Below are positions 1 to 3,032 of a DNA stretch of 64,000 bases, piece by piece. The stretch's first letter is position 1; every line of letters starts with the position of its first letter. A program made the translations under genes and the position numbers. Source of the DNA: Candidatus Palauibacter rhopaloidicola (GTDB lineage Bacteria; Gemmatimonadota; Gemmatimonadetes; Palauibacterales; Palauibacteraceae). Location of the stretch: the NCBI GenBank assembly GCA_026914155.1, contig JAPPGH010000056.1, positions 1 through 64,000 of the forward strand, in the 5' to 3' direction. Under the pieces are notes generated by a model, which was not told the origin of the DNA, searched no databases, and saw nothing but the letters and a program-made list of their open reading frames with translations.

Positions 1-203
1 TCGGGAGGGGGCGTCCACTCCATCGGCTCCCGACCAGTAACGGTCGTGAGCCAGCACACGACATGGTCCTTGGCTGTGGATCCGGGCACCCTCTCCGGTT
101 GCCCTGTGTGACGCTCAGCCAAAGACCCGCCAGCATTCCCAGCGACAGATTGCCCAGCCTACCCCACCCCCGCTGCGGGCTTCCTTCTCCACCTTCGACA
201 GCG

Positions 204-233
204 TTGACAATGCGCTAGCTTGGGCGGTAGCTA
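204..233 (+). promoter_or_regulatory. Candidate sigma70-type promoter of the nuclease island
   Basis: A perfect -35 hexamer TTGACA lies at 204-209 and TAGCTA at 228-233, 18 bases apart. This would start transcription near 240, just before the hairpin at 259-290 and the small ORF and nuclease gene downstream. The surrounding 1-390 stretch is less GC-rich than the rest of the window. Only sequence resemblance supports it. Confidence 0.4.
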
Positions 234-258
234 AGTCGTCCGGCGCGGACTCAGCGAC

Positions 259-290
259 CCAACATGCCGCAACCGCTGGCGGCATGTTGG
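259..290 (+). promoter_or_regulatory. Perfect 12-bp inverted repeat upstream of the nuclease operon
   Basis: The arms CCAACATGCCGC (259-270) and GCGGCATGTTGG (279-290) are exact reverse complements around the 8-base loop AACCGCTG. No T-run follows, so it is a poor intrinsic terminator. It lies between the candidate promoter and the nuclease gene, and the right arm contains the ATG (284) of the small ORF. It could be an operator or an RNA hairpin that hides that start. If a longer protein is encoded in this frame, the palindrome would instead lie inside coding sequence. Confidence 0.6.
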
Positions 291-385
291 TCTCCCTGTG
301 GCTGGTCGTTCTCTCACTTGGACTGATCGGTTCATTTGCCGCGCTGATCTCCCGATGGATCGAACGAAATCAGGCGAAGGAGTGA
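284..385 (+). CDS. Small single-transmembrane protein (33 aa), putative
   Basis: The reading frame from ATG 284 encodes 33 residues: a hydrophobic helix (residues 3-22, about LVSLWLVVLSLGLIGSFAAL) followed by a charged tail ISRWIERNQAKE. The stop (383-385) lies 4 bases before the nuclease start, so the two would be co-translated. The frame is open back to position 50 without any ATG, GTG or TTG, so the gene could be a longer protein with an unusual start or the remnant of one. The start codon sits inside the perfect hairpin at 259-290 and lacks an obvious Shine-Dalgarno sequence. A short membrane helix with a tryptophan and basic tail recalls type I toxin peptides, but that is shape only and not homology. 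Function is unknown. Confidence 0.35.
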   Translation: MLVSLWLVVLSLGLIGSFAALISRWIERNQAKE

Positions 386-389
386 CGGC

Positions 390-1907
390 ATGAAGGTGGC
401 GGATGCGATCAAGTGGATGTCGAAGCTTCCGTTGCAACGCATCGTGGACAGCTTCACGAAGGACTTCCCGAAACCCGACGAGGACCAAGCCCGGGACATC
501 ATTCTGCGAAACGTCGCGGAGCTCACCGACGCAAAACGAATCACGACCGTTCTCCAGTTCGACGGTCCATTCAAGGACCAGATCCGGCAGATCCTAATGC
601 TGGAGGCGTTCGTGAATCGGCCCGACTGGTCGGCATCGGAGCAGGATATCGTCGAGAGCCTGACCCGCTTGGAGCAGGATGTGCTCGACGCAGCAGCAGC
701 GGACGGGAGTCTGCGCTACGAGGACCCGGAGCGCATCGAAATCTTGAAGGACGTACTCAGAACAGCGCTGGACGACAAGCTGATCACTTTTCGTGAGCTG
801 AACCTGCTCCGTACTCTCCGCGACAGCCTTGGGCTGTCCGAGACCGTCTTCCGCATCGTGCTCGCCCAACTAAACCACTTTCCCCAACCAGGCAACGTCC
901 TGCACACGCCGAGTGAGTGCCGCGACGTGCTCAACGCGCTGCAACGGGGTGGCATCGTCTTCCATTGCAACAAGGCGGATGGCTCGCCCTACGTGATTCC
1001 GGACGAAATCCGGGCTTCCGTGATGGGAGCGCTTGGTATGGAACTCGGGCTGCACGCTTGGGGCCTGCTCCTCGACGCCCTCACGGTTACGCAGTTGAAG
1101 CAGGCGCTGGTCAAGAAGAAACTTCCCACTTCGGGCACGAAGTCGGAACTCAAGAGTCGGGTAATCTCCTCCGGCCTGAGTCCCAGCGCCGCGCTGCGCA
1201 TCCTGTCCACCGGGGATCTCCACGAACTGTGCTCCTCGCTTCCAGGCGTTCCGGTGAGCGGAACCAAAGCGCAGCGAATCCGACGAATCATCGGGTACTT
1301 CGCCAATCTGATAACGAAGGAGGTGTCGGAGGAGGCCTCTCCCGGCGAGCGATTCTACAAGTACCTGCCGGAACTCGCCCGGCGCGACCGGGAGAACCTG
1401 CTAGCGAACCAGATCATCAAGAAAGACCTTGATATCGAGCACGGGTTCGAGGCGGCAACGCGGTTTCTCTTCGAATCAAGGCTGGGGCTTGAGTTGATGG
1501 AATTGGCCGGGAGCGAGCACCCCGACGGATGCATCCGGTTCGGCGGCCGTCGCACGGCAAACGGAGATGTGCTGATGTGGGACAACAAAAGCACGGAGGC
1601 CGCCTACACGTTTCCGCCCTCGCACCTGAGGCAGTTCAAGCGCTATATCCGAGACGCACGTGACCCGGTTGCCTGCTTCCTCGTCATCGTCGCGAAGCCC
1701 GACGACTCCGCAATGGACAGCGTCTGGCAGCTGGCAGCCCAATGCACCGGTACCCAGATCTCCGTCATCGCCGCCGAGGACCTTGGCTGGATGGCAGAAG
1801 AATGGTGGTCGCGGAATCCCGATGGCCGATTCAACCTCGAAGTTCTCAACATGACCGGCATCTTGAATCGTCCGCTCCTCGAACATCGGATGAAACTTTT
1901 TCTCTAA
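390..1907 (+). CDS. SAP-domain protein with C-terminal FokI-like PD-(D/E)XK nuclease
   Basis: This 505-residue protein starts at ATG 390 behind an AAGGAG ribosome site. Residues 1-225 are helical and of unknown family; a stretch near 130-165 (DDKLITFRELNLLRTLRDS) looks like TerB-type helices. A SAP DNA-binding motif follows at about 231-264 (LTVTQLKQALVKKKLPTSG), with a second, weaker copy at about 272-305. The C-terminal third carries HPDG (377-380), then WDNKS with D398 and K400, then an aromatic/Q-F-K-R-Y segment. This is the same order as PDG...VDTK...Q..RY in the FokI cleavage domain, so a metal-dependent DNA cleavage domain of the PD-(D/E)XK fold is inferred. No methyltransferase or specificity subunit is seen beside it. 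It may be a stand-alone defence nuclease or a mobile-element endonuclease. Base composition is lower in GC than the neighbours, suggesting transfer. Confidence 0.7.
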   Translation: MKVADAIKWMSKLPLQRIVDSFTKDFPKPDEDQARDIILRNVAELTDAKRITTVLQFDGPFKDQIRQILMLEAFVNRPDWSASEQDIVESLTRLEQDVLDAAAADGSLRYEDPERIEILKDVLRTALDDKLITFRELNLLRTLRDSLGLSETVFRIVLAQLNHFPQPGNVLHTPSECRDVLNALQRGGIVFHCNKADGSPYVIPDEIRASVMGALGMELGLHAWGLLLDALTVTQLKQALVKKKLPTSGTKSELKSRVISSGLSPSAALRILSTGDLHELCSSLPGVPVSGTKAQRIRRIIGYFANLITKEVSEEASPGERFYKYLPELARRDRENLLANQIIKKDLDIEHGFEAATRFLFESRLGLELMELAGSEHPDGCIRFGGRRTANGDVLMWDNKSTEAAYTFPPSHLRQFKRYIRDARDPVACFLVIVAKPDDSAMDSVWQLAAQCTGTQISVIAAEDLGWMAEEWWSRNPDGRFNLEVLNMTGILNRPLLEHRMKLFL

Positions 1908-2042
1908 GCGCGGGCGGTGACCGGGGCGATCCTTCGATTCCGCTATCCGCCGCGCAAAGGGTGATCCCCGGGGTGACCCCAAGAGGACACACTAGATCGT
2001 AAATGATTGTAGAACATGATTTTATGGCCGTATTCTGCTCGG
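1908..2042. other. Island junction, AT-rich, no gene
   Basis: Between the nuclease stop and the surviving part of the FAD gene lies non-coding sequence. A GC-rich part (1908-1990) contains a short direct repeat GGGTGA within GGGTGATCCCC and GGGGTGACCCC. An AT-rich part (1990-2036) is unlike anything else in the window. Similarity of the minus-strand gene to its family stops at about 2042, so one boundary of the insertion or rearrangement is placed here. No tRNA or integrase gene is visible. The other boundary lies beyond the window. Confidence 0.5.
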
Positions 2043-2838
2043 ACTGGTTCGCGTTGCAGGCGAAGATCACCGCGTCGAACGTCTCCTCCACGCCGTTCTC
2101 ATCCTCGACCACGACGTGCGTGGGCCCTCGAACCACCCGGCGGACGGGCCGGTTGAGGTAGATTTTTTCCCGGAAATCGGCAGCGAGGTTCTCGTAGATC
2201 CGGCGCGTTCCCTGGTCCCAGGTCTGCATGGTCGTCGCGGCTTCGATGTCGAAGAACTCGAGATACCTGGAGAACAGCGAGGCGGGCATATCGAAGACAT
2301 TCGTCGCCATCAGGAAGTTGACGAACATCGGCTTCAGCACCTTGTACCTGAAGTCCCCGGAGAAACCGGCCACGTTCAGGACCGTGCCCATGCTGATGTA
2401 GTTGAAGGGATTGAGGCCGTTCACGAACTTCGACCGCGAATGGGTCAGCCGGCCGAACCGGTGCAGGAGCCGCAGGATGCGTTGGAACTTCGCAATCTCG
2501 AGCTGCAGCTGCTCCCGGATGTCCGAATCGAAATCGTGGGCGTAGGTCCCCCCGCGGTACTTCACGCTGTAGCTGAACCTTGTGTCGATCAGGTCGATGC
2601 CGAACTGCTCCAGCAACACCACGAAGTGCTGATAGACGGAGGGGATGCAGGCGGTGACCGAAATATCGAACGGGATCGCGCCGCCGTCGTCCTGGGGCAT
2701 GTCGGCGGTCACGGCATTCCCGCCGAGTTGCTCCCGGGCCTCGAACAGCCGGAAGTCGAACCGGTCCGAATCGTGATGCAGCGCCCATGCGGCCCCGAGG
2801 CCCGAGACGCCTCCGCCGACGATGGCGATGTTCTTCAT
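2042..2838 (-). pseudogene. FAD-dependent amine oxidase-type oxidoreductase, 3'-truncated
   Basis: The gene starts at ATG 2838 behind GGGGAGACGG. The first residues MKNIAIVGGGVSGLGAAW form an N-terminal FAD Rossmann motif, followed by LFEAREQLGGNA, the second flavin-binding element of NAD(P)/FAD amine-oxidase-like proteins (COG2907 type). Family-like sequence continues for about 266 residues to FDAVIFACNANQS, where the chain should run on for roughly another 150 residues to close the flavin site. Instead the frame enters the AT-rich junction and continues as unrelated sequence (EQNTAIKSCSTI) to a stop at 1846, antisense to the nuclease 3' end. The C-terminal part is therefore missing and the product is probably non-functional. 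An alternative in-frame ATG lies at 2865. Confidence 0.65.
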
Positions 2839-3032
2839 CCGTCTCCCCTTCCCGCGGGTGGTCATGTCCTCCCGTCCCGGAAACGTTGCCGCGCGGGTGC
2901 GTGTTCACACATGCGGACGCCGCCGGCGCGCGCGGCGAGCCTTGCTGTTCGGGGGCCGCCCGCACCAGTTTTTTCGGGCTGCGCCAACCTATGAACCACG
3001 AGATGGACGTCATGATTTTCCCTGGAGACAAG

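Follow-up and report, generated by a model that had tools for sequence, protein, structure and literature searches.

Stand-alone nucleases, membrane-coupled nucleases and mobile islands with defence cargo are the closest described counterparts of the locus analysed here. It lies at the start of a 64,000-nucleotide stretch of DNA from Candidatus Palauibacter rhopaloidicola (the window) and encodes a protein of 505 residues. The type IIS enzyme FokI (cleavage domain PF09254) resembles this protein in its catalytic order, PDG...DxK, and in its fold. However, the recognition domains of FokI were not detected in the window protein, which has SAP motifs and a TerB-like N-terminal region, and no cognate methylase was found in the island end within the window or in the visible island of a near-identical copy (L019). 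Shedu (SduA; PMC12904381) is likewise a stand-alone nuclease with a possibly sensing N-terminal region, a C-terminal PD-(D/E)XK domain and no modification enzyme, but no PADLOC Shedu model matches our protein, whose nuclease is FokI-type and accompanied by SAP. Zorya, a membrane-coupled nuclease (PMC12904381), embodies the idea of a membrane protein joined to a nuclease, as does a pair that we found in Acidimicrobiia-group relatives; the membrane protein of that pair is a K+-type ion channel (TVGYGD filter), its coupling to the nuclease is putative, and the channel does not stand beside the window copy. Integrase-borne islands and phage satellites, finally, share with the window island a tyrosine integrase at one end, att sites and defence-type cargo at the other, whereas the window island is inserted inside an FAD oxidoreductase gene and its visible part contains no satellite or phage-packaging genes. 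Literature searches on SAP in anti-phage systems, on FokI with SAP and TerB and on ion channels with nucleases, which covered part of the literature, returned no matching system. Since the combination occurs in no library or paper found in this search, we regard the nuclease family as undescribed, and class its protein as a putative mobile-element-borne PD-(D/E)XK defence-type nuclease, a kind that is already known.

The window, whose first position is a contig edge (G000:C59:1), has the features collected in Table 1. The original prediction had described a short membrane ORF and a nuclease ORF separated by 4 bases, lower in GC than their neighbours and adjacent to a disrupted gene. This geometry was recovered exactly. 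The GC content of the pair (284-1907) is 59.7%; segments of the same length from elsewhere in the window have 68.8 ± 2.0%, and none of them falls this low. The disrupted neighbour is a minus-strand FAD/amine oxidoreductase gene, broken because the island integrated within it, and its open frame extends into the island so that it spans 1846-2865. The perfect inverted repeat upstream of the nuclease may have a regulatory role.

Table 1 Features of the island end and of genes near related nucleases (window positions unless a locus is named)
Feature	Position	Strand	Basis or remark
Contig-edge end of the island's variable middle	1-24		Alignment
Palindrome GGCTCCCGACCAGTAACGGTCGTGAGCC, marking the left limit of the conserved end of the island	25-52		Cargo differs between genomes beyond the palindrome
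Perfect 12-bp inverted repeat upstream of the nuclease	259-290 (arms 259-270/279-290)		Contains the would-be ATG of the 33-aa ORF
33-aa hydrophobic ORF	284-385	+	ATG start, one hydrophobic stretch; probably not a gene
505-aa TerB-like/SAP/FokI-type nuclease	390-1907	+	ORF, Pfam, Foldseek
TerB-like helical region, weak (residues 82-154)	633-851	+	Pfam, 11/15 members, best E = 0.0011
SAP motif (residues 228-259)	1071-1166	+	Pfam PF02037, E = 7.9e-10, above cut-off
Second SAP-like helical unit (residues 265-305)	1182-1304	+	Predicted helices; motif by eye
FokI-type PD-(D/E)XK domain; D379 (1524-1526), D398 (1581-1583), K400 (1587-1589)	1320-1904	+	Pfam, alignment, Foldseek
Non-coding attR arm of the island	1908-2043		Alignment
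attR crossover core CTGGTTC (GAACCAG in host-gene sense), 7 bp	2044-2050		Near-identity of island copies stops just past the core
N-terminal half of the FAD/amine oxidoreductase gene that the island interrupts	2051-2865	-	Pfam, alignment
K+-type ion channel near nuclease	L026:10034-10831; L028:9599-10519; L030:9658-10503; L091:9310-10107; L034:9917-10747 (halovirus)		
HNH/GmrSD_C-type lipoprotein-like gene near nuclease	L019:4967-5806; L058:8300-9331; L091:6698-7543		Three independent contexts
DRT UG21 reverse transcriptase directly downstream of nuclease	L024:9570-11486		

The 505-residue protein belongs to a real, constrained family. Comparison with six relatives gave dN/dS values of 0.10-0.14, which demonstrates strong purifying constraint. 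The SAP motif was matched in 12 of 15 family members. Of the several SAP motifs proposed originally, this one is confirmed by Pfam, while the other is only SAP-like, as judged by eye; its helices reached a pLDDT of ~82-91 up to residue 300, dropping at residues 301-305, in a full-length AlphaFold run. This whole-protein model (pLDDT 51.7) was usable only in the SAP region, which modelled well. In the N-terminal half, the match to TerB (PF05099) has an E-value of 0.023 in the window protein, below the curated cut-off.

The FokI cleavage domain was matched in 13 of 15 relatives, although in the window protein alone the match (residues 352-425; E = 1.2e-4) stays under the Pfam cut-off. The motifs follow the order of FokI, i.e., PDG (378-380) and then WDNK (397-400). 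Residues D398 and K400 are invariant in the family alignment, and D379 is kept in all bacterial relatives aligned, within HPDG or, in three of them, HADG. Two haloarchaeal relatives have ATG or SSG in place of PDG and lack the first catalytic Asp; cutting may thus not be universal in the family. We modelled residues 311-505 (pTM 0.72) and used the model for a Foldseek search, in which FokI provided the sole PDB matches below 1e-3 (2fok and 1fok, the top three), the best being 2fok with an E-value of 3.8e-5 and a probability of 1.00. Searching the PDB with a profile of all family members yielded chance matches only, because FokI is too distant by sequence. The SAP and FokI-order nuclease core and its PD-(D/E)XK fold, both proposed originally, are thus supported. 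Among the PADLOC and NCBIfam models, only a marginal REase_II match was obtained (PADLOC, E = 0.0028), and for two relatives PADLOC gave no match. PHROGs gave no match, and a library of viral-protein structures gave nothing below 1e-3.

The FokI-type catalytic domain raises the question of whether the protein is a type IIS restriction enzyme whose methylase is encoded elsewhere. We consider this highly improbable. As originally noted, no methylase or specificity subunit lies beside the nuclease, and the visible island of L019 also lacks a methylase; the one seen near the relative L021 is part of L021's own restriction-modification fusion. Moreover, the SAP and TerB-like parts occupy the place of the FokI recognition domains.

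The short ORF fared differently. It had been put forward as a membrane partner of the nuclease, and its 4-base spacing and hydrophobic sequence in the window would suit a toxin-antitoxin or effector pair. Yet the frame is intact only in the near-identical trio formed by the window, L018 and L019: the aligned DNA of L020, L022, L024, L028, L029 and L030 contains indels or stops or has no ATG, and searches of Pfam, PADLOC and NCBIfam returned no family match. We therefore rejected the ORF as a conserved partner, its frame being broken or absent in every relative outside the trio, an outcome that the original prediction had itself named as refuting it, and judge a peptide-nuclease pair to be the least credible of the readings considered. 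What survives of the pairing is the notion of a membrane partner, which reappears as an ion channel in the Acidimicrobiia-group relatives (see below).

We next turn to the island itself. Positions 25-2050 are the end of a tyrosine-integrase mobile island, with the nuclease at attR. In related genomes the FAD/amine oxidoreductase is uninterrupted (...NANQTLM...), whereas the window copy is broken at GAACCAG. The other half of the host gene adjoins a tyrosine integrase with Arm, core-binding and catalytic domains on G225:C160 (L019, L053) and on G059:C158 (L052), and both halves of the split gene were found together with the integrase in G225:C160 and in G059:C158/C46. These copies give the layout (L019 and G059) attL, integrase, HNH gene (GmrSD_C match), variable cargo, palindrome, nuclease and attR. 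The locus thus has what marks a tyrosine-integrase island: the integrase, attL and attR at one site, and an uninterrupted target elsewhere. attL and the integrase were read in L019 and G059. The genome of the window itself (G000) is incomplete: a sequence search of its contigs did not recover the attL half, so the complete island is not seen there in one piece. Contig C3 of this genome opens with a sequence 98% identical to window positions 1-55, but does not carry the missing half. The core CTGGTTC occurs 25 times in the window against ~6 expected; the core alone can therefore not set the integration site, and the flanking arms must matter.

Palindromes of the type at 25-52 occur at four loci in the whole genome, compared to none for a control pattern; besides the window copy, these are C3:48, C43:19787 and C2:63154. 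Palindromes of this type flank the variable part of the island and possibly mark a point of cargo exchange.

Sequence comparison of the island copies revealed a very recent transfer. Window positions 25-2050 share 99.6% identity with L019 (JAPPJO010000134), and L019 in turn is 99.7% identical over 2.1 kb to L018 (VXMI01000033; genome G059), which belongs to another family of the same class. The differences of the window copy lie nearly all within the first 100 bases; beyond these, only three differences from L018 remain in ~1,900 positions (99.8%). Just past 2050, within the FAD/amine oxidoreductase gene, the identity of window and L018 falls to ~82%. At the other end, the integrases of G225:C160 and G059:C158 are 98.7% identical, while the host-gene halves there share only ~81%. 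This contrast between a near-identical island and a diverged host gene shows that one and the same island recently entered both bacterial families, each time at an identical core. L018 and L019 belong to separate assemblies, and at the island ends the sequence continues into host DNA, which makes a simple artefact of assembly unlikely. Besides the split gene on G225:C160, G225 possesses an intact one, and the split gene shares 95-96% identity with the intact gene of genus g1; G225:C160 is therefore probably a mis-binned contig of the window's genus. The hosts are probably sponge symbionts, as judged from sample names such as RHO2, which match a study that sampled Rhopaloeides odorabile. The introduction of a sponge-microbiome survey calls evidence for such gene transfer lacking (PMC8163846). 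With the two junctions and the target site resolved, the island documents cleanly that genes moved very recently from one bacterial family to another, probably inside sponge microbiomes.

The distribution of the gene also bears on whether the island acquired a housekeeping repair nuclease. In three congeners, copies of 56-58% identity occupy a fixed chromosomal place among housekeeping genes, as would be expected of a repair enzyme. Nevertheless, the gene is patchy, with 5 of 17 congeners and 13 of the 298 genomes sampled from the phylum carrying it, and it moved in near-identical form between families, which makes a repair function very improbable. Three readings, namely a type IIS enzyme whose methylase lies far away, a repair nuclease and a peptide-nuclease pair, are all much less likely than the two further alternatives discussed below. 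Among plasmid and phage proteins, only haloarchaeal relatives were found (~22% identical), one on a plasmid of Natrinema, where an integrase lies upstream of it, and one in the Halorubrum virus Humcor1, an induced provirus. A search of viral contigs gave one match, to a contig with the same protein as Humcor1.

It had been suggested to check whether known defence genes lie near homologues of the nuclease, and they do. L021 neighbours a BsuBI/PstI restriction-modification fusion and an ImmA/IrrE-type gene, L022 a Dsr1 and a PDC-S26 gene, L023 an HNH gene, L025 NucS and DUF4268, L029 McrBC and L058 OLD. In L024, the reverse transcriptase listed in Table 1 is accompanied by a type IV Mrr, PDC-S26 and an AAA/nSTAND-like ATPase. 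At a PADLOC threshold of E ≤ 1e-15, at least 10 of 49 neighbours of relatives had matches (a conservative tally), compared to 1 of 48 control genes, which all come from the remainder of the window, a single 61-kb stretch of a single genome (Fisher p = 0.004). This evidence stems mostly from relatives at 80-90% identity and not from the island itself, which carries one defence-like gene only (GmrSD_C/HNH).

Taken together, the domains and fold, the island location, the purifying selection, the defence-rich neighbourhoods and the relatives on a plasmid and a provirus suggest that the 505-residue protein is probably an anti-invader nuclease, directed against phages or plasmids and carried on a tyrosine-integrase genomic island. 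The defence role proposed originally is thus favoured, as far as sequence and gene context can tell. Alternatively, the nuclease might serve the island, cutting rivals or an empty target for the island's own spread, maintenance or recombination (mobility or homing) rather than protecting the cell. It is one of two conserved island ends, with integrase and HNH gene at attL, nuclease at attR and variable cargo between, and its relatives on a plasmid and a provirus would fit such a role as well. However, for site-specific insertion the integrase is enough, most relatives reside at other places with no close copy of the island integrase in the flanks examined, and many genes near those relatives are of the defence type. 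We therefore consider a nuclease in the service of the island unlikely.

As an anti-invader nuclease, the protein would grip DNA through its SAP unit or units, and its FokI-type domain would cut when two copies meet by dimerisation. The N-terminal TerB-like half would hold the enzyme off until infection, as no methylase protects the host DNA. If this holds true, the family adds a FokI-type, modification-independent nuclease to prokaryotic immunity.

A candidate partner emerged from the Acidimicrobiia-group relatives. In L026, L028/L030 and L091, a gene downstream of the nuclease and in the same orientation encodes an Ion_trans/Ion_trans_2 channel; nuclease and channel are the only DNA that these three unrelated chromosomal sites have in common. 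In the four Acidimicrobiia-group genomes, the best channel match is the copy beside the nuclease. In the halovirus, a channel lies ~0.5 kb from the nuclease, but on the opposite strand and with a membrane-hydrolase gene between. This raises the possibility, compatible and partly overlapping with the defence reading, that the family natively combines a nuclease with a K+-type channel and that the window copy is reduced, its channel being lost or unlinked. As no channel was found in the flanks of the nuclease in the Gemmatimonadota loci checked, including the window, or near it on the Natrinema plasmid, we regard this as possible but doubtful. In the Acidimicrobiia-group, the channel may couple membrane disturbance to the nuclease and would then provide a possible activation route, while the window copy would work without a channel or with an unlinked partner. 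More tentative still is the full picture of a putative new anti-invader system, in which a SAP/FokI-type nuclease core works with a K+-type channel that reports membrane disturbance in the Acidimicrobiia-group, and perhaps in haloarchaeal viruses, and is passed between sponge symbionts as a cassette at the end of integrase islands that interrupt an FAD oxidoreductase gene.

The HNH gene of the island also has counterparts elsewhere. Related lipoprotein-like genes adjoin the nuclease in L058 and L091, although they are rare, with 0-3 per genome in the ten genomes searched. Such a gene lies near the nuclease at 3 of 12 loci, for which a rough binomial estimate gives p ~1.5e-4, bearing in mind that defence genes cluster anyway. 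The integrase family at the same end of the island reaches up to 9 or more copies per genome and was detected in 33 of 198 genomes (G000 and 32 others of the class), in 4 of 89 genera.
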